DNA from: an uncultured Pelagibacteraceae bacterium
GTDB lineage: Bacteria > Pseudomonadota > Alphaproteobacteria > Pelagibacterales > Pelagibacteraceae
Length of the DNA stretch: 37,479 nt
Direction of reading: 5' to 3'
Assembly: GCA_902524865.1 (NCBI GenBank)
Contig: CABZEV010000007.1
Coordinates: 1-37,479 of the forward strand
The position numbers and the translations under genes are program-made. This document shows, one piece after another, positions 8,414 to 18,008 of this stretch. Within the stretch, counting starts at the first letter, position 1, and each line of letters starts with the position of its first letter. The notes under the pieces are model-generated. The model made no database searches, was not told where the DNA came from, and saw only the letters and a program-made list of their open reading frames with translations.

Positions 8414-10709
<2,296 letters not shown>

Positions 10710-10716
10710 AAATTAA

Positions 10717-12252
10717 TTAAGATTTAAAGTTTTTCTTAAGATTGGTAATTACTTCAATTAAAGTTTTTTCAGTTTCTTCCTCTAACTTACCAGAACTTAA
10801 AATAGATTGTATTAACTCTGGTTTATCAGATTTGCATCGTTCAATAATTCTATTCTCAAAGTCAGCAATATCTTTTAAATCAATATCATCTAAATACCCT
10901 TTTACTCCACAAAATACAGATATCACCTGTTCAGCAACAGTCATTGGTGAATATTGTTTCTGTTTTAATAACTCAGTTAATTTCGATCCTCTATTTAAAA
11001 GCTGTTGAGTTGAGGCATCTAAATCAGATCCAAATTGAGCAAAAGCTGCCATTTCTCTATATTGTGCCAATTCAAGTTTCATTGATCCTGATACTTTTTT
11101 CATAGCTTTTGTTTGCGCAGCTGAACCAACCCTAGAAACAGATAATCCAACATTAATCGCTGGTCTTATACCTTGGTTAAATAACTCAGTTTCTAAAAAA
11201 ATTTGTCCATCGGTAATTGAAATTACATTAGTTGGAATATAAGCAGAAACGTCTCCACCTTGAGTTTCAATGATAGGAAGAGCTGTTAATGAACCTCCGC
11301 CGTGTTCATCGCTTAATTTAGCAGCCCTTTCCAGTAATCTACTATGAAGATAAAATACATCGCCTGGATATGCTTCTCTGCCTGGTGGTCTTCTTAATAT
11401 AAGTGACATTTGTCGGTAGGCAACTGCTTGTTTTGATAAATCATCATAAATAATTAGAGCATGCATTCCATTATCTCTAAAGTATTCTCCCATTGCACAC
11501 CCCGTGTAAGGAGCCAAAAATTGAAGTGGAGCTGAGTCTGATGCTGTTGCTGCTACTATAGTTGTATATTCCATTGCACCAGCTTCTTCTAAAGTTTTTT
11601 GAATTTGTCTTACAGTTGATCTTTTTTGACCAACCGCAACATAAATACAATAAAGTTTTTGTTTTTCATCTCCGGACTCATTAATCTTTTTTTGGTTGAT
11701 AATTGTGTCAACTGCGACTGCAGTTTTACCAGTTTGACGATCTCCAATAATTAATTCTCGTTGACCTCTTCCAATCGGAACTAGACTATCAATTGATTTT
11801 AAACCTGTTTGCATTGGTTCGCTTACAGACTGTCTTGGAATGATACCGGGAGCCTTAACTTCAACTCTACTTTTTTTTACACTTTTGTCTAATGGTCCTT
11901 TTCCATCAATTGGATTTCCCAACCCATCTACGACCCTTCCTAATAATTCTTTTCCAACAGGGGTATCGACAATACTTCCAGTTCTTTTTACTACATCTCC
12001 TTCTTTAATGTTTCGATCATCTCCAAAAATTACAACACCTACATTTTCACTTTCCAAATTTAAAGCCATACCTTTTGATCCATCAGAAAATTCTACCATT
12101 TCACCAGCCTGAACATTATCTAGTCCATAAATTCTAGCTATACCATCTCCAACTGATAAAACTTGACCAACCTCAGAAATTTTAGTTTTTTCTCCAAAAT
12201 TTTTGATTTGTTCTTTTAATATTTTTGTGACTTCTGAAGGATTGATATCCAT
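10717..12252 (-). CDS. atpA: ATP synthase F1 subunit alpha
   Basis: The alpha subunit is 511 aa, full length, and forms the non-catalytic nucleotide-binding part of the alpha3beta3 ring. The P-loop GDRQTGKT is at residues 170-177. The N-terminal beta-barrel has [22 protein letters not shown], and the family signature [17 protein letters not shown] is present. It lies one base after the atpH stop and 7 bp before atpG. The F0 genes are not in the window, in keeping with the split F0 and F1 operons of alphaproteobacteria. Confidence 0.99.
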
Positions 12253-12253
12253 A

Positions 12254-12811
12254 TTACGCCTCTATCATTCTATTTTCAATTTGTTGTAATTTACTTTTTA
12301 TGGAAGTATCAATCATAGTACTTCCAACTTGCACAATCAAACCTCCAATTAAACTTTCATCTTGTTTATAACTCAACTTAATTTTTGATTTAAAATTGTT
12401 TGATAGCTCATCTGTAATTTTTTTAATCTCATCTTGAGTTAAGGATTTTGCGGATTTAATTTCAGCTTTTAACTCACCTCTTTTCTCAGAACATGTTTGA
12501 ATAAAACTTTTTAAAATTTTTTTAGTATAAAAATATCTTCTTTTTAAAATTAAAAAATTTAAAAAATTTCTAAATAAATTTTCTAATTTAAAGTTATTAG
12601 AAATCTTATTATTAATATCTGTTAAAATATTTTGACCTAAAGATGGGTCCTTTAAAAAATTATTAAACTCTTTGCTTTGATCGATTAAGTTTAGATATGC
12701 CACAGAATTTTCTTCAACTTGGGAAAGTAAATTTGCTTCTTCGGCAAGTTCGTATAAAGCCAAAGAATATCTACTAGCAGAAGTGCTGGAAAACTCTTTA
12801 TTTTTACTCAA
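12254..12811 (-). CDS. atpH: ATP synthase F1 subunit delta
   Basis: This 185-aa protein fits the delta subunit (OSCP), the peripheral-stalk link between F1 and F0. The [16 protein letters not shown] segment near the N-terminus and the C-terminal [27 protein letters not shown] block are diagnostic. The start is a TTG (coding strand, 12811); no in-frame ATG lies upstream of the conserved region. It is the first gene of the F1 set and follows a 107-bp gap holding palindromes and possible promoter elements. Confidence 0.92.
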
Positions 12812-12844
12812 ATTAATACCTATTAAATATTGAAGATTTATTAA

Positions 12845-12856
12845 TAACTCGAGTTA
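12845..12856. promoter_or_regulatory. 12-bp perfect palindrome upstream of atpH
   Basis: TAACTCGAGTTA is a perfect inverted repeat 34 bp upstream of the atpH start codon, near the expected transcription start or early leader of the F1 operon. A second palindrome lies 10 bp away. It could be an operator or part of a hairpin in the leader. No regulator is known to me for this site. Confidence 0.35.
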
Positions 12857-12883
12857 ATTAACACATGACCAATTGGTCTTCAA
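12855..12883 (-). promoter_or_regulatory. Possible promoter of the atpHAGDC operon
   Basis: On the minus strand TTGAAG (12883-12878) is followed after 17 bp by TAATTA (12860-12855), giving a leader of about 37 nt before atpH. The match is only moderate. A stronger -35, TTGACA (12899-12894), lies further upstream but has no good -10 at 16-18 bp. Either way, the 107-bp gap is the only room for a promoter ahead of the operon. Confidence 0.3.
12867..12878. promoter_or_regulatory. 12-bp perfect palindrome GACCAATTGGTC
   Basis: GACCAATTGGTC is a perfect 12-bp inverted repeat in the priA-atpH gap. It contains four G/C bases and stands out in such AT-rich DNA. It falls within the spacer of the candidate atp promoter, a position where a bound dimeric regulator could act. 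Function is inferred only from symmetry and position. Confidence 0.4.
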
Positions 12884-12896
12884 GTAACACGTTTGT

Positions 12897-12917
12897 CAAA
12901 AAAAGCAGTTTTTTTTG
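12897..12917 (-). terminator. Possible weak terminator after priA
   Basis: On the minus strand C-A8-CTGC-T7-G starts two bases after the priA stop. The A and T runs can pair around a CTGC loop and the T arm could act as the U tract. The stem is almost purely A:T, so it is weak at best. Confidence 0.25.
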
Positions 12918-12918
12918 A

Positions 12919-14874
12919 TTAATTGAAGTTTATTGGATCAACATCAACTGAAAGTTTTATTCCCGAGGTAAATTTATATTTTGGTATTAATTTTGCCAAT
13001 GAATTCTGTAATTTTAATGTTTTAAGCCCTCTTATTAAAAGCCTAATACGATATTTTCTCTTCAATCTAAATATAGGAGCACTCACTGGACCTAATATTT
13101 TTCCATTAATCTTATTTTCTAAAAATAATTTAAATTTTAAGGCCTCTTTTTCTAATTCATTTTCATTATTACCAGTCAAAATTAAAGAGATAAATCTTTG
13201 AAAAGGGGGAAGATTATTTATTTTTCTAATTTGAATTTCTTTTTCCAGAAAATTTTCGGGATTTTTGTTAGTAATATCTGAAATCATATTGTTATTTGTA
13301 TTATAAGATTGAAAATAAATTGTAGCTGATTTTCCAGTTCTGCCTGCTCTCCCCGACAATTGATGATAAAGTTGTAAATTTTTTTCTGCGCTTCTTAAAT
13401 CATGGCCATTAGATGATAAATCAATATCTATTACTACAATACAATTTAAATTTGGAAAATGAAACCCCTTTGAAATTAATTGAGTGCCAACTAAAATTTC
13501 AATTTCATTATTTGTGATTTTTTCTAACTTATCCTTTGAACTTTTTTTATTCATAGTGTCACTAGAAAAAATTTCTACTATTCTATTAGGAAATTTTTTT
13601 TTTACTTCTTCAGAAATTCTCTCTACACCTGGACCGCTAAATATAAATTCACATTTTACATCTTTTTTACAATTTCTCTCTAAATAAGTTTTGTATCCAC
13701 AATAATGACATAATAAATTTTTCTTTCTCTTATGATAAACTAAATTTATTGAGCAATTTGGACATGAAAATGTATTATAACATTTTTTACATAACACATT
13801 AGGTGAAAATCCCCTCCTATTTAAAAAAAATAAGATTTGATCCTTTTTTTTTAAATGAACATTTACTTTTTCAATAATTTCATTTGATATCCAAGATTGT
13901 TTTTCCATCTTTGCATTATTTAAATCAATTACTTCATGGTTAGGCAGAGATGCGTTTTGATATCTATTTTCTAGCCTTGAAAATTTGTATTTTTTTTTTT
14001 TTATATTCTGAAAAGTCTCAACTGATGGAACAGCTGTTATCAAATTTATAGGTATATTCTCAAAAGATGCTCTTGAAATTGCCATATCACGTGCATTATA
14101 AATTATACCTTCATCTTGTTTGTATGACTGATCGTGTTCCTCATCGACGATTATTAATCCTAATTTTTTAAATGGTAAAAAAAGTGCAGATCTTGCGCCA
14201 ATAACAACTCTTATTTTTCCTGTTACTATACCACTCCAAATTATTTCTTTATTTTTTTTTGATATACCAGAATGCCAGATTGCTGGTTCTATACCAAAAA
14301 ATTCTAAAAATTTTTTTTCAAACTGATTAGTTAAACCAATCTCTGGTAGCATAATTAAACCTTGATGACCCTTTTTTAAAACAGCTTTTAAAGCTTCAAA
14401 ATAAACTATTGTTTTTCCAGATCCAGTAGTACCTTGCAATACATGAACATTAAAATTTCGATTTGAATTATTTATTTCATTTAGAGAGATTTTCTGATCT
14501 TTTGTTAGCCGAAATAAATTTTTTTTTTTTTCAATTTGAAATACTTTATAAAATTTATCTTCAAATTTCCCTACAGGTTTGCCACTTAATAAAGTCATTT
14601 TTAAAGCCATACCCTTAGATATAAGATTGTATTCGGAAAACCAGTTTAAGAAATTTAAAGTTTTTATATTAAGTTTTGGAATATCTAGTTTCTTGATTAT
14701 TTTTTTTATCCTAAAATTTTTTTCATTTTTTTTTTCGAATTCATTCCATACAACTCCAATCTTTCTTGAAGTACCAAAGGGTACCTCTACAAAATCTCCT
14801 ATACTTAAATTTAAGTTACTTTCATATGTGAAAGGATGATTGAAAATATTAGGCAAAAGAATCGGAAATTGCAT
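12919..14874 (-). CDS. priA: Primosomal protein N' (PriA helicase), divergent
   Basis: PriA restarts stalled replication forks by unwinding DNA and loading the primosome. The 651-aa product has an N-terminal DNA-binding region, Walker A GTTGSGKT at 148-155, the VDEEHDQSYKQ DEEH box, a zinc-binding segment (CKKCYNTFSCPNC; CHYCG) and a C-terminal helicase lobe with GTQLISKGFHFPNL and QLSGRAGRTG. It is shorter than E. coli PriA (about 730 aa). Two oddities: helicase motif III, normally SATPS, reads TAVPS, and the last cysteine pair is spaced CX5C instead of CX2C. Two 13-base poly-A coding tracts are present (13990-14002 and 14519-14531). It lies between the fusion gene and the ATP synthase operon. 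Confidence 0.93.
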   Translation of the reverse strand: MQFPILLPNIFNHPFTYESNLNLSIGDFVEVPFGTSRKIGVVWNEFEKKNEKNFRIKKIIKKLDIPKLNIKTLNFLNWFSEYNLISKGMALKMTLLSGKPVGKFEDKFYKVFQIEKKKNLFRLTKDQKISLNEINNSNRNFNVHVLQGTTGSGKTIVYFEALKAVLKKGHQGLIMLPEIGLTNQFEKKFLEFFGIEPAIWHSGISKKNKEIIWSGIVTGKIRVVIGARSALFLPFKKLGLIIVDEEHDQSYKQDEGIIYNARDMAISRASFENIPINLITAVPSVETFQNIKKKKYKFSRLENRYQNASLPNHEVIDLNNAKMEKQSWISNEIIEKVNVHLKKKDQILFFLNRRGFSPNVLCKKCYNTFSCPNCSINLVYHKRKKNLLCHYCGYKTYLERNCKKDVKCEFIFSGPGVERISEEVKKKFPNRIVEIFSSDTMNKKSSKDKLEKITNNEIEILVGTQLISKGFHFPNLNCIVVIDIDLSSNGHDLRSAEKNLQLYHQLSGRAGRTGKSATIYFQSYNTNNNMISDITNKNPENFLEKEIQIRKINNLPPFQRFISLILTGNNENELEKEALKFKLFLENKINGKILGPVSAPIFRLKRKYRIRLLIRGLKTLKLQNSLAKLIPKYKFTSGIKLSVDVDPINFN

Positions 14875-14879
14875 AGTTT

Positions 14880-14885
14880 ATTATA
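14880..14885 (-). promoter_or_regulatory. Candidate -10 box of priA
   Basis: A consensus TATAAT on the minus strand ends 5 nt before the priA ATG in a 41-bp gap. Transcription would begin at about the A of the start codon, giving a leaderless mRNA. No good -35 is visible, and TATAAT is common by chance in such AT-rich DNA. Confidence 0.3.
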
Positions 14886-14915
14886 TAACAACTTAAAAAT
14901 ATTTATTATTTAGTT

Positions 14916-16583
14916 TTACTTTTTTGAAGTTTTTAAAAAGTCTAAAACTAAAAGACCATTGGAAAAGTTGTATGTATGTGTGCCTTCAATATCTTTAAAA
15001 AAATTAGGTGTAACTTCAAATTTACTATTTTCTTTATAATTATCTTCATTCAATTCTTCAATTTTTGCTACTCCTAATGACTCGCCATATCTATTGAAAC
15101 CAGGTTTTTGATAAACTCTATAAAAATTATCATCTTCAATTATTAATCCAGCATTTCTTGCAAAAAAAGGATCAAATATTACTGGATTTTTTTTATGAGC
15201 TTCCCATTTATCAGAAAAAATGTTTTCACTGCTAAAAATATGTAGTTGGGAGTCGTGATCCTCAAGTTTGCTGTTTGATAAATTTGTTAATAACCACCAT
15301 CTTTTATCTTTATAAAAAATATTAGTATCAACTGCAGAAACATTTTTGATCAATGTTTTTGCAAATTTCCACTTAAGTGGAAATTCAATACATTTATATA
15401 ATCTTATTTCATTAGCCTCATGGGTATCTGGGCACATATAGAGATCTTTATTGTAAGAAAATAAAAATGGATAAGAAAGATGAAAACTTTCCTCTAAAGC
15501 AACACCAATTTCTTTACAAGAGACTTCATTTATTTCGTAGACTGAAATAAATCCTTTTTTTTTTTTTTTATCAAAATCCTCTACAAAACAATAATGATTA
15601 TTGTCTTTTTTAACAACAAAAGGATCTGCTAAATATCTATTTGGAGGATTTGGAATGGTCTTTGCTTCGGAAAGATTTATATTTTTCCAATCGGAGCTAA
15701 ATTTATAAGCAATATTCCATTGATAATTATTATAAAAAATTTCATTTAAAATTTTTATAAAAATATTTTTTAAAGTGTACAAAATATATAATATCGAAAT
15801 ATATATTGATGGTAATGAATAAATTGGGCCAACAGATTGTTTTTCATTCTTAAAATTTATAACAGAAGTATCTGATGTTAAATTTTCTATAACAAAATGC
15901 AGAAAAATGTTTGATTTTTCAAAAAGATTGATAAGATTTAATGTGTAGATCCAATGTGTTGTAAAATATCCCTTAAATAAAACTTTTCCATTATCAAGCT
16001 CATTTCCCAATCTTTGAATTATAAAACCAGTTCTTGCATCTTTATTTATAATCTCCCAAAATCCAGGTGGTCCACCACGATAAAAATTGTTATCCCCATG
16101 ATGAAATGAAATAATACCGTTTTTACACAGATTTAAAATTTCACCTTTTAAAATTCCAGATCCACCACGTATTAAAAGATTAAGATTTAATGATCTTATT
16201 TTTTGTAAATCTGTTTGATTATAACTATAAAAAATTCCATTCTCTGAAATATTTGGTTGGACTTCAATTTCTTTTAAATTAAATTTTTTTAAGGAGTGTA
16301 CTTTAAAAAAATTCGAGAATTTATCATTCCGCTTAAGTATTATTTTTTCTAAATCTATTATTACCTTAAATCCAGCTGCAGCAATGAATTTTTTTAAGCC
16401 TCTTTTTTTAATATATTCTAATGATTTTTTTAAAAGATTTATATTTTCTTGTTTGTCTTTTTTTTGAACTATAAGATGACTTATCTCGTAATTATTTGAA
16501 TTTTTTGATGCTTCAATAAAATCAAAAATTTGTTTCGATGAGTTTAGGCTATCAACAATTATACCTACCCTGGCTTTTTCCAT
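14916..16583 (-). CDS. Formyltransferase-like domain fused to sugar-enzyme-like beta-propeller
   Basis: This 555-aa protein has no gene name that I recognise. The N-terminal half (about 1-215) resembles the formyl transferase fold of Fmt, ArnA and PurN. HHGDNNFYRGGPPGFWE (161-177) matches the catalytic HxSLLPxxRGxxP region, and ELDNGKVL (195-202) supplies the conserved Asp (D197). His161 is kept, but the Asn two residues before it is Ser159. A hydrophobic linker follows (about 255-285). The C-terminal part (about 315-550) has RYLADPFVV, SYPFLF, DTNIFYKDKRWWLLT and FARNAGL, which resemble the GH43-like propeller found at the N-terminus of glucosamine inositolphosphorylceramide transferases. 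The likely role is N-formylation of an amino sugar in a surface glycan, but no glycan genes surround it. A 15-A tract encodes Lys339-343. The domain calls are from memory of motifs, not a search. Confidence 0.7.
   Translation of the reverse strand: MEKARVGIIVDSLNSSKQIFDFIEASKNSNNYEISHLIVQKKDKQENINLLKKSLEYIKKRGLKKFIAAAGFKVIIDLEKIILKRNDKFSNFFKVHSLKKFNLKEIEVQPNISENGIFYSYNQTDLQKIRSLNLNLLIRGGSGILKGEILNLCKNGIISFHHGDNNFYRGGPPGFWEIINKDARTGFIIQRLGNELDNGKVLFKGYFTTHWIYTLNLINLFEKSNIFLHFVIENLTSDTSVINFKNEKQSVGPIYSLPSIYISILYILYTLKNIFIKILNEIFYNNYQWNIAYKFSSDWKNINLSEAKTIPNPPNRYLADPFVVKKDNNHYCFVEDFDKKKKKGFISVYEINEVSCKEIGVALEESFHLSYPFLFSYNKDLYMCPDTHEANEIRLYKCIEFPLKWKFAKTLIKNVSAVDTNIFYKDKRWWLLTNLSNSKLEDHDSQLHIFSSENIFSDKWEAHKKNPVIFDPFFARNAGLIIEDDNFYRVYQKPGFNRYGESLGVAKIEELNEDNYKENSKFEVTPNFFKDIEGTHTYNFSNGLLVLDFLKTSKK
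15555..15569 (-). repeat. Homopolymer tract of 15 A (coding strand)
   Basis: Fifteen consecutive T on the plus strand encode Lys339-343 of the fusion protein. It is the longest homopolymer I found in the window. A gain or loss of one base leads to a stop within about ten codons in either shifted frame, leaving the formyltransferase half intact but removing most of the propeller. Confidence 0.9.
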
Positions 16584-16607
16584 TATTTTTTACCAAAAAT
16601 TTATCAA

Positions 16608-18008
16608 TTAAGAGTGTATAGCTCTTTTGTCTACTGATAAAGCTGCTTCTTTTACTGCTTCTGAAAAAGTAGGATGAGCATGACATGTACGCGCTATATC
16701 TTCTGAACTTGCTCCAAACTCCATCGCAATTCCAATCTCAGCAATTAATTCTCCAGCGTGTGGACCTATTAAGTGTGCTCCCAATACTTTATCAGTTTTT
16801 TCATCAGCAAGAATTTTTACAAAACCCTCGGTGTCATCAATGGCTTTTGCTCTAGAGTTAGCCATAAATGAAAATTTTCCAATTTTATAATTTATTTTCA
16901 GTTCTTTTAATTGTTCCTCTGTTTTTCCAATAGAGGCAACTTCTGGACTAGTATAAATCACACCAGGGATAGTATCATAGTTAACATGGCCTGATTGACC
17001 TGCTATATTTTCTGCAACTGCAATTCCCTCATCCTCAGCTTTATGAGCCAACATAGGACCACTAATTACATCTCCTATCGCATAAATATTATTTTGATTA
17101 GTTTTAAAATTTTTGTCAGTTTTTACCCTCTTTTTTTCATCTAATTCCACACCAATTTTTTGAAGATTTAGTCCCTCCGTATTTGGCTTTCGACCAACAG
17201 ATATTAATACTACATCACATTCAAAATCTTTTTTGGTACCATTTTTGTTTAAAGTTGAGACAATTGCATTATCGTTAATCTTTTTAATTTCCTCTACTTT
17301 ATGCTGCATATGAAAATTGATTCCTTGTTTTTTTAAAATTTTCATAAACTCACTGGATATCTCTTTATCCATGCCTGGTGTTATATGGTCTAAAAACTCA
17401 ACTACATGGACTTCTGCACCAAGTCTAGACCATACTGATCCCATCTCTAAACCTATGTATCCTCCACCAACAACAACCATTTTTTTAGGGACTTGCTCTA
17501 ATTTAAGTGCTCCAGTGGATGAAACAATTACTTTTTCATCAATTTCAATTCCTGGCAATGAAACTGGAATTGAACCAGTTGCAATTATAGTATTTTCAGT
17601 TTGTACAATTGTCTCTTTATTATCTTTATCTTTGATAACAATATCATTTTTAGATTTGAAACTTCCGGAGCCTTTAAAATAAGTGACTTTATTTTTTTTA
17701 AGAAGAAACTCCACTCCTTTGGTCAAAATTGTAACTGCTTTGTCCTTATTTTTCATCATTTTTGACAAGTTTAATTTTACCTCACCAATTTCAATTCCTT
17801 TATTTGATAAACTCTGTGTGTTATGAAACTCTTCAGATAAATTTAATAAACTTTTAGAAGGAATACATCCAACATTCAAACAAGTACCACCTAGTGAACC
17901 TCTAGATTCTATACATGCAGTTTTAAGGCCTAATTGTGCCAATCTTATTGCGCAAACATAACCTCCAGGTCCTCCACCAATTACTACTGCTTGAAATTTA
18001 TCTATCAT
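16608..18008 (-). CDS. lpd: Dihydrolipoamide dehydrogenase (E3)
   Basis: E3 reoxidises dihydrolipoamide with NAD+ in 2-oxoacid dehydrogenase complexes. The 466-aa product has the FAD motif VIGGGPGGYVCA near residue 9, the redox disulfide GGTCLNVGCIPSK (Cys43 and Cys48), the NAD motif VVVGGGYIGLEMGSVW, the second FAD motif YAIGDVISGPMLAHKA, and the C-terminal His-Glu pair in CHAHPTFSEAVKEA. It directly abuts sucB, so it most likely serves the 2-oxoglutarate dehydrogenase complex. It may also serve other complexes such as glycine cleavage if no other E3 exists in the genome. Confidence 0.97.
   Translation of the reverse strand: MIDKFQAVVIGGGPGGYVCAIRLAQLGLKTACIESRGSLGGTCLNVGCIPSKSLLNLSEEFHNTQSLSNKGIEIGEVKLNLSKMMKNKDKAVTILTKGVEFLLKKNKVTYFKGSGSFKSKNDIVIKDKDNKETIVQTENTIIATGSIPVSLPGIEIDEKVIVSSTGALKLEQVPKKMVVVGGGYIGLEMGSVWSRLGAEVHVVEFLDHITPGMDKEISSEFMKILKKQGINFHMQHKVEEIKKINDNAIVSTLNKNGTKKDFECDVVLISVGRKPNTEGLNLQKIGVELDEKKRVKTDKNFKTNQNNIYAIGDVISGPMLAHKAEDEGIAVAENIAGQSGHVNYDTIPGVIYTSPEVASIGKTEEQLKELKINYKIGKFSFMANSRAKAIDDTEGFVKILADEKTDKVLGAHLIGPHAGELIAEIGIAMEFGASSEDIARTCHAHPTFSEAVKEAALSVDKRAIHS

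Follow-up and report, generated by a model that had tools for sequence, protein, structure and literature searches.

A formyltransferase-like domain fused to a GINT1_N propeller, carried as a strain-variable gene between lpd and priA in a Pelagibacteraceae genome

In plants, the GINT1 protein joins a GINT1_N domain to a GT64 glycosyltransferase. The Pfam family GINT1_N (PF24793) represents the N-terminal domain of plant glucosamine inositolphosphorylceramide transferase 1, and the propeller half of the bacterial protein described here, which we call X, matches this family. In the open literature we found no paper that gives the GINT1_N domain a function, and nothing relevant either on PF24793 or GINT1_N by name or on a fusion of a formyltransferase with a propeller. 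Formyltransferases share the motif HxSLLPxxxG, and the Asn that precedes it is crucial in FMT, ArnA and GART; the hydrolase domain of FDH carries Ile at the Asn position and uses a His and an Asp (PMC4388273). We analyzed X and its relatives starting from the window, that is, the whole 37,479-nucleotide stretch of DNA from an uncultured Pelagibacteraceae bacterium in which the gene lies.

Position and architecture of the gene

The coordinates that the first-pass annotation gave for the gene stand, and its strand is now set as minus, because the plus strand contains 47 stops over the same interval (Table 1). The genes lpd, X and priA are all co-directional, in a local order of sucA-sucB-lpd-X-priA-atp (core-metabolism content was examined for this local neighborhood only). 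With a GC content of 25.1% and a GC3 of 15.1%, X resembles the adjacent priA (25.9% and 15.8%), so that composition shows no foreign origin. A local promoter and terminator scan found no terminator-like sites near X, a count not clearly below chance. The host carries a regular fmt separately from X. No signal peptide is obvious by eye, and the amphipathic linker helix between the two halves is a possible membrane-surface helix; both features are consistent with X being a cytoplasmic, perhaps membrane-surface, protein.

Table 1. Features of gene X and its surroundings in the window
Feature	Position	Strand	Basis or remark
X, 555-aa formyltransferase-like/GINT1_N propeller fusion	14916..16583	-	ORF, ATG start
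priA	12919-14874	-	adjoins X
lpd	16608-18008	-	adjoins X
24-bp gap, lpd stop to X start	16584..16607	.	edge of variable insertion site
41-bp gap, X stop to priA start	14875..14915	.	opposite edge of variable insertion site
Formyltransferase-homologous segment, aa ~123-209	15957..16217	-	hhalign to Fmt, PDB profile match 4iqf
SFHHGDNNFYRG motif, aa 159-170	16074..16109	-	alignments; Ser for catalytic Asn, His161 kept, GDNN for SLLP
Asp197, equivalent of the formyltransferase catalytic Asp	15993..15995	-	alignments
Linker helix, aa 259-284, amphipathic	15732..15809	-	predicted secondary structure (low confidence at helix start); hydrophobic moment at most 0.45
GH43-like GINT1_N propeller, aa ~286-550	14934..15728	-	Pfam, AlphaFold/Foldseek, conservation 43-44/44

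The two halves of the protein and their conservation

The presence of a propeller in the C-terminal half is certain. GINT1_N matched aa 312-519 at E 6.7e-41, with 140.7 bits against a curated cut-off of 27, and an AlphaFold model built from a six-row alignment reached a pLDDT of mostly ~80-96 over aa 290-430 and of 53-91 after that. Upon searching with this model, low-confidence N-terminal half included, Foldseek returned propellers of the GH43, GH159, GH32, GH117 and GH130 types, the best being the GH43 structure 4qqs at E 3.7e-8. The fold, modeled for the most part at confident pLDDT, is predicted to be GH43-like and five-bladed, the blade count being taken from the matched folds. By motif reading, not superposition, two Asp of the GH43 Asp/Asp/Glu triad are found in X and the Glu is not at its usual motif, while Glyco_hydro_43 Pfam scores in the relatives fell below the cut-off.

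Residues ~123-209 of X, within a Rossmann-like N-terminal domain of ~aa 1-250, are homologous to methionyl-tRNA formyltransferase by profile comparison, even though the single sequence scores only 16.7 bits against a Pfam cut-off of 26.1. The NCBIfam fmt profile matched X at 4.3e-7; a nine-row X profile matched the Fmt structure 4iqf at 1.3e-7, and 5vys and ArnA at ~2e-4; and hhalign against SAR11 Fmt proteins gave an E of 1.2e-9 over 87 columns, an alignment in which His161 and Asp197 fall on the catalytic His and Asp, respectively, of Fmt. Two structure predictions left the N-terminal half at a pLDDT of mostly 25-63, with 25-50 over most of it in the six-row model and 42 for the model of the formyltransferase domain, low values that result from alignments holding only 3-6 sequences. 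The fusion proposed by the first-pass annotation is borne out on both sides, and so is its numbering of Ser159, His161 and Asp197, as read in the motif SFHHGDNNFYRGGPPGFWE.

The active site itself departs from the formyltransferase pattern: where HxSLLPxxxG would be expected X reads HHGDNNFYRG, with the motif spacing kept, and the catalytic Asn two residues before the His is replaced by Ser159. The subfamily with the form SFHHGDN, proposed in the first-pass annotation, does exist. Relatives with an intact site come from SAR11, another alphaproteobacterium, two other Pseudomonadota, a haloarchaeon and a viral contig, and all of them share HH(G/A)D, with Ser at the Asn position in most and Ala in the viral protein (L075). 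Residues H161, H162, D164, R169, G170, P172, W176, E177, G186, Q190, D197 and G199 are invariant in this group. The change is therefore a shared feature of the group and not an accident of the copy in the window.

The two halves differ strongly in how they are conserved. In the propeller, D320, E335, H368, D419, R476, G479, Q492, Y499 and G500 are invariant in 44/44 relatives, and H536 and D548 are present in 43/44 (one row ends early), whereas the His161/Asp197 pair is kept in 10 of the 35 relatives that have an N-terminal region and is absent in the other 25. On the propeller tree, the label for an intact site requires 6 changes; branches with good support demand at least 3 of them, and support is weak at many deep forks. 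The pair was lost once within SAR11 (L007/L038), where the G010 copy reads ISSNIFRKFQNQNNPPGFWE, without both residues. For the Rhizobiales-type relatives, profile comparison did not recover a formyltransferase identity in the N-terminal regions, which may be unrelated or may have diverged past recognition, and clear intermediates (L038, L058, L078) suggest a real loss of the site. Standalone propellers occur within SAR11 (G068; L040) and in three f9 genomes (L057, L071, L073), and other proteins combine the propeller with a GT28 C-terminal domain (L047) or with GT2 (L083, L084). Both GT2 fusions are viral (L083:4920-6914 and L084:4920-7205) and contain, besides the GINT1_N propeller and the GT2 glycosyltransferase, a part that is weakly kinase-like. 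As the propeller is conserved while the His/Asp pair is often absent, we regard the propeller as the shared core, to which a formyltransferase part is one optional addition.

This contrast is what favors an alternative in which a pseudo-formyltransferase, or a domain with a binding or regulatory role, makes up the N-terminal part, the propeller works as a lectin or an altered GH43-related enzyme, and the HHGDN site is being lost. The standalone propellers and the absence from X of the donor loop and the catalytic Asn point the same way. Strict retention of the HHGDN site across very distant hosts argues against it, and so does selection. Compared with a copy of 95% identity (L001), dN/dS is 0.28 for X as a whole, 0.26 for the N-terminal domain and 0.32 for the propeller, while another SAR11 pair (L036/L037) gives 0.10 for the N-terminal domain. 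The value for X lies above that of lpd (0.125) and well below 1, and these codon-level comparisons demonstrate purifying selection on X, which would be unexpected for a decaying pseudo-site. We hold this alternative to be possible, though with clearly less than an even chance.

Distribution of X and the lpd-priA cargo site

X does not belong to a SAR11 core genome with a constant place in most genomes. Taking a query match over 200 aa as a clear relative, we found one in 7 of the 146 other genomes of the family (147 with the window's own), five of them (G030, G007, G021, G010, G017) with more than the propeller and two (G068, G097) with the propeller only. A further genome (G119) holds a 67-residue fragment, and most other matches in the family were weak frames of ~300 aa that we took to be normal fmt. 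As the set contains one genome per species, many of them incomplete, such frequencies are approximate. Two single-cell contigs of close relatives also have X after lpd: in L001 the protein is 95% identical over 520 aa, and L002 includes only its start. Other SAR11 copies lie elsewhere, between core-type genes; four of them directly follow one gene, which is a GSDH-type dehydrogenase in both copies tested (L036, L039). A standalone SAR11 protein of the formyltransferase domain (L042:10911-11624; Formyl_trans_N 2.7e-8) was seen in a glycan-type cluster.

Synonymous divergence (dS) from L001 is 0.078 for X and 0.095 for lpd but 0.23 for sucB and 0.254 for sucA, and from L002 it is 0.07 for X (a short piece of 54 codons), 0.339 for lpd and 0.889 for sucA. 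These values indicate that X and its edge were probably exchanged recently via recombination in the flanking core genes.

The interval between lpd and priA is itself variable. We compared 30 priA loci of the genus: the lpd-priA gap measures 23-26 bp in 20 of them, 7 carry other inserts, 2 are cut by a contig end and 1 is the window; thus, for the 27 informative loci, 20/27 have no insert and 7/27 hold unrelated cargo, in line with a strain-specific presence, which the first-pass annotation had raised as one possibility. The inserts (L103, L131-L136 and L106), like several neighbor genes of the relatives discussed below, were in part named by eye, and some were checked with Pfam. Among them are an FkbM methyltransferase (L103), a cupin of the DMSP-lyase type (L106/L136), two cassettes, of three genes (L132) and six genes (L131), with DegT aminotransferases, SDR epimerases, GT4 and WbqC, an AAA/helicase-like protein of 1531 aa (L133) and a stretch of ~8.8 kb with phage-type genes (L134, about 9200-18000, with a DNA polymerase A and a terminase small subunit) that is possibly a prophage or a remnant of one. 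The cupin at L136:4194-4775, also present at L106, matches Pfam DMSP_lyase at 7.9e-19 and L136 lies in a complete SAR11 genome; a sulfur-cycle gene may be spreading via the lpd-priA site. X is thus a strain-variable, single-gene cargo between conserved genes.

Such a site bears on two further explanations. In one, X would hydrolyze or sense 10-formyl-THF in the manner of the FDH hydrolase and tie folate one-carbon metabolism to the adjacent TCA operon, as its co-directional place between TCA and priA/ATP synthase genes and the use of His and Asp without the Asn (Ile) in FDH (PMC4388273) might suggest. FDH, however, keeps SLLP and X does not, relatives of X sit in glycan clusters, and the TCA position is limited to this strain group, with the relatives' X elsewhere and unrelated cargo in the lpd-priA gap. 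We rejected a TCA-linked reading because the position is not conserved, and consider the folate explanation very improbable indeed. In the other, X would be a cargo gene outside glycan biology, for instance for defense or phage-related modification, in a hotspot that takes up phage DNA. Copies on viral contigs, one of them (L075) adjoining a tail-collar gene, and the phage genes and large helicase in the gap of sister strains fit such a role, which we nevertheless regard as unlikely, as the viral propellers of L083 and L084 are joined to GT2 and to kinase-like parts and are again glycan-type. Viral sequences scanned with three alignments contributed just four loci of use, and a search of phage records gave no match. 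The viral contig L075 (1436-4275) encodes a full formyltransferase-propeller protein of the HHADN form.

Glycan setting and candidate function

Outside SAR11, the neighborhoods of the relatives are mostly glycan loci or polysaccharide clusters. Among the relatives with an intact site, the haloarchaeal one lies in a plasmid glycan cluster with DegT aminotransferase, NeuB-type synthase and glycosyltransferase genes, one (L116) in an exosortase-type exopolysaccharide cluster with a bacterial sugar transferase, an exosortase and glycosyltransferases, and one (L117) adjoins a Polysacc_synt_2 dehydratase and a sugar transferase. Other relatives occur near an NRPS and Wzz, flippase and sugar transferase genes (Rhizobium), near VpsF and GumC (R. 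rhizoryzae), and near a flippase and TviB (Caballeronia). The exceptions are an intact-site relative adjoining guaA (L115, in G426) and the SAR11 copies. No glycan gene was found beside X within the window, as the first-pass annotation had said of sugar genes, although sister strains do carry amino-sugar cassettes in the lpd-priA gap. Strong DegT sugar-aminotransferase genes are present in all five other searched SAR11-family genomes with a copy of the formyltransferase region plus propeller; none was found in the host assembly (67.6% complete). Together with the propeller-glycosyltransferase fusions, the relatives' neighborhoods back the proposed surface-glycan role, which we infer for X by analogy.

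The explanation we favor, and to which we give an even chance, is that X works in the cytoplasm, is exchanged laterally and uses its two domains to tailor glycans by N-acyl chemistry, with formyl as the first candidate. The target of the C-terminal propeller would be a sugar unit in a surface glycan or in a lipid-linked precursor, which it would bind and perhaps also act on, and the N-terminal domain, of formyltransferase fold with its unusual HHGDN site, would carry out N-acyl chemistry on the amino sugar held by the propeller. Our guess at the reaction is N-formylation, the likeliest one, with a donor that is perhaps other than the standard 10-formyl-THF. The gene would travel alone, as cargo set between conserved genes. 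Formyl transfer in the plain form first proposed is not supported, given the missing Asn, the replaced HxSLLPxxxG and the many relatives with the same propeller that lack the His/Asp pair. The altered donor loop calls for caution on 10-formyl-THF-dependent formylation by X, and the loss of the His/Asp pair in many relatives indicates that the reaction is dispensable to the propeller's role. Alternatively, the HHGDN proteins might be enzymes of a class of their own that share the formyltransferase fold. Their donor pocket would be rebuilt, either to take a donor different from 10-formyl-THF or for amide hydrolysis (possibly at a His/His/Asp metal site), and the propeller coupled to it would itself be a catalytic, sugar-active domain distinct from GH43; we find this doubtful.

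In prokaryotes GINT1_N is widespread, with a polar pocket that does not vary and with different partner domains in different proteins, and it thereby offers a route to the propeller's role, while the HHGDN proteins provide a natural experiment on the extent to which a formyltransferase site can change. The lpd-priA gap, in turn, is a compact cargo site in a very abundant ocean bacterium, holding glycan, sulfur-metabolism and phage genes.

Like the O-chain and HVR2 flexible islands of SAR11 (PMC2217521, PMC11898729), the lpd-priA gap places strain-variable genes between core genes, cell-surface genes in the case of the islands; HVR2 is flanked by the 5S and 23S genes, and the gap is a separate, smaller site, which neither paper mentions by lpd or priA name. 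With the GH43/GH32-type five-bladed propellers (4qqs), X shares the fold at a sequence identity of 18%; by motif reading, not superposition, its ADP and blade-3 Asp resemble the GH43 base and pKa-modulating Asp, and the position of the general-acid Glu reads R-(N/P)-A-G. With Formyl_trans_N (Fmt, ArnA and sugar N-formyltransferases such as the GDP-perosamine N-formyltransferase 5vys), X shares the 87-column homology, the catalytic His and Asp, and the RG, TG and LD.G motifs, but differs in Ser for Asn (Ala in L075), in GDNN for SLLP and in a score below the curated Pfam value. Compared to plant GINT1, finally, X pairs the propeller with a formyltransferase-like domain, without a glycosyltransferase.
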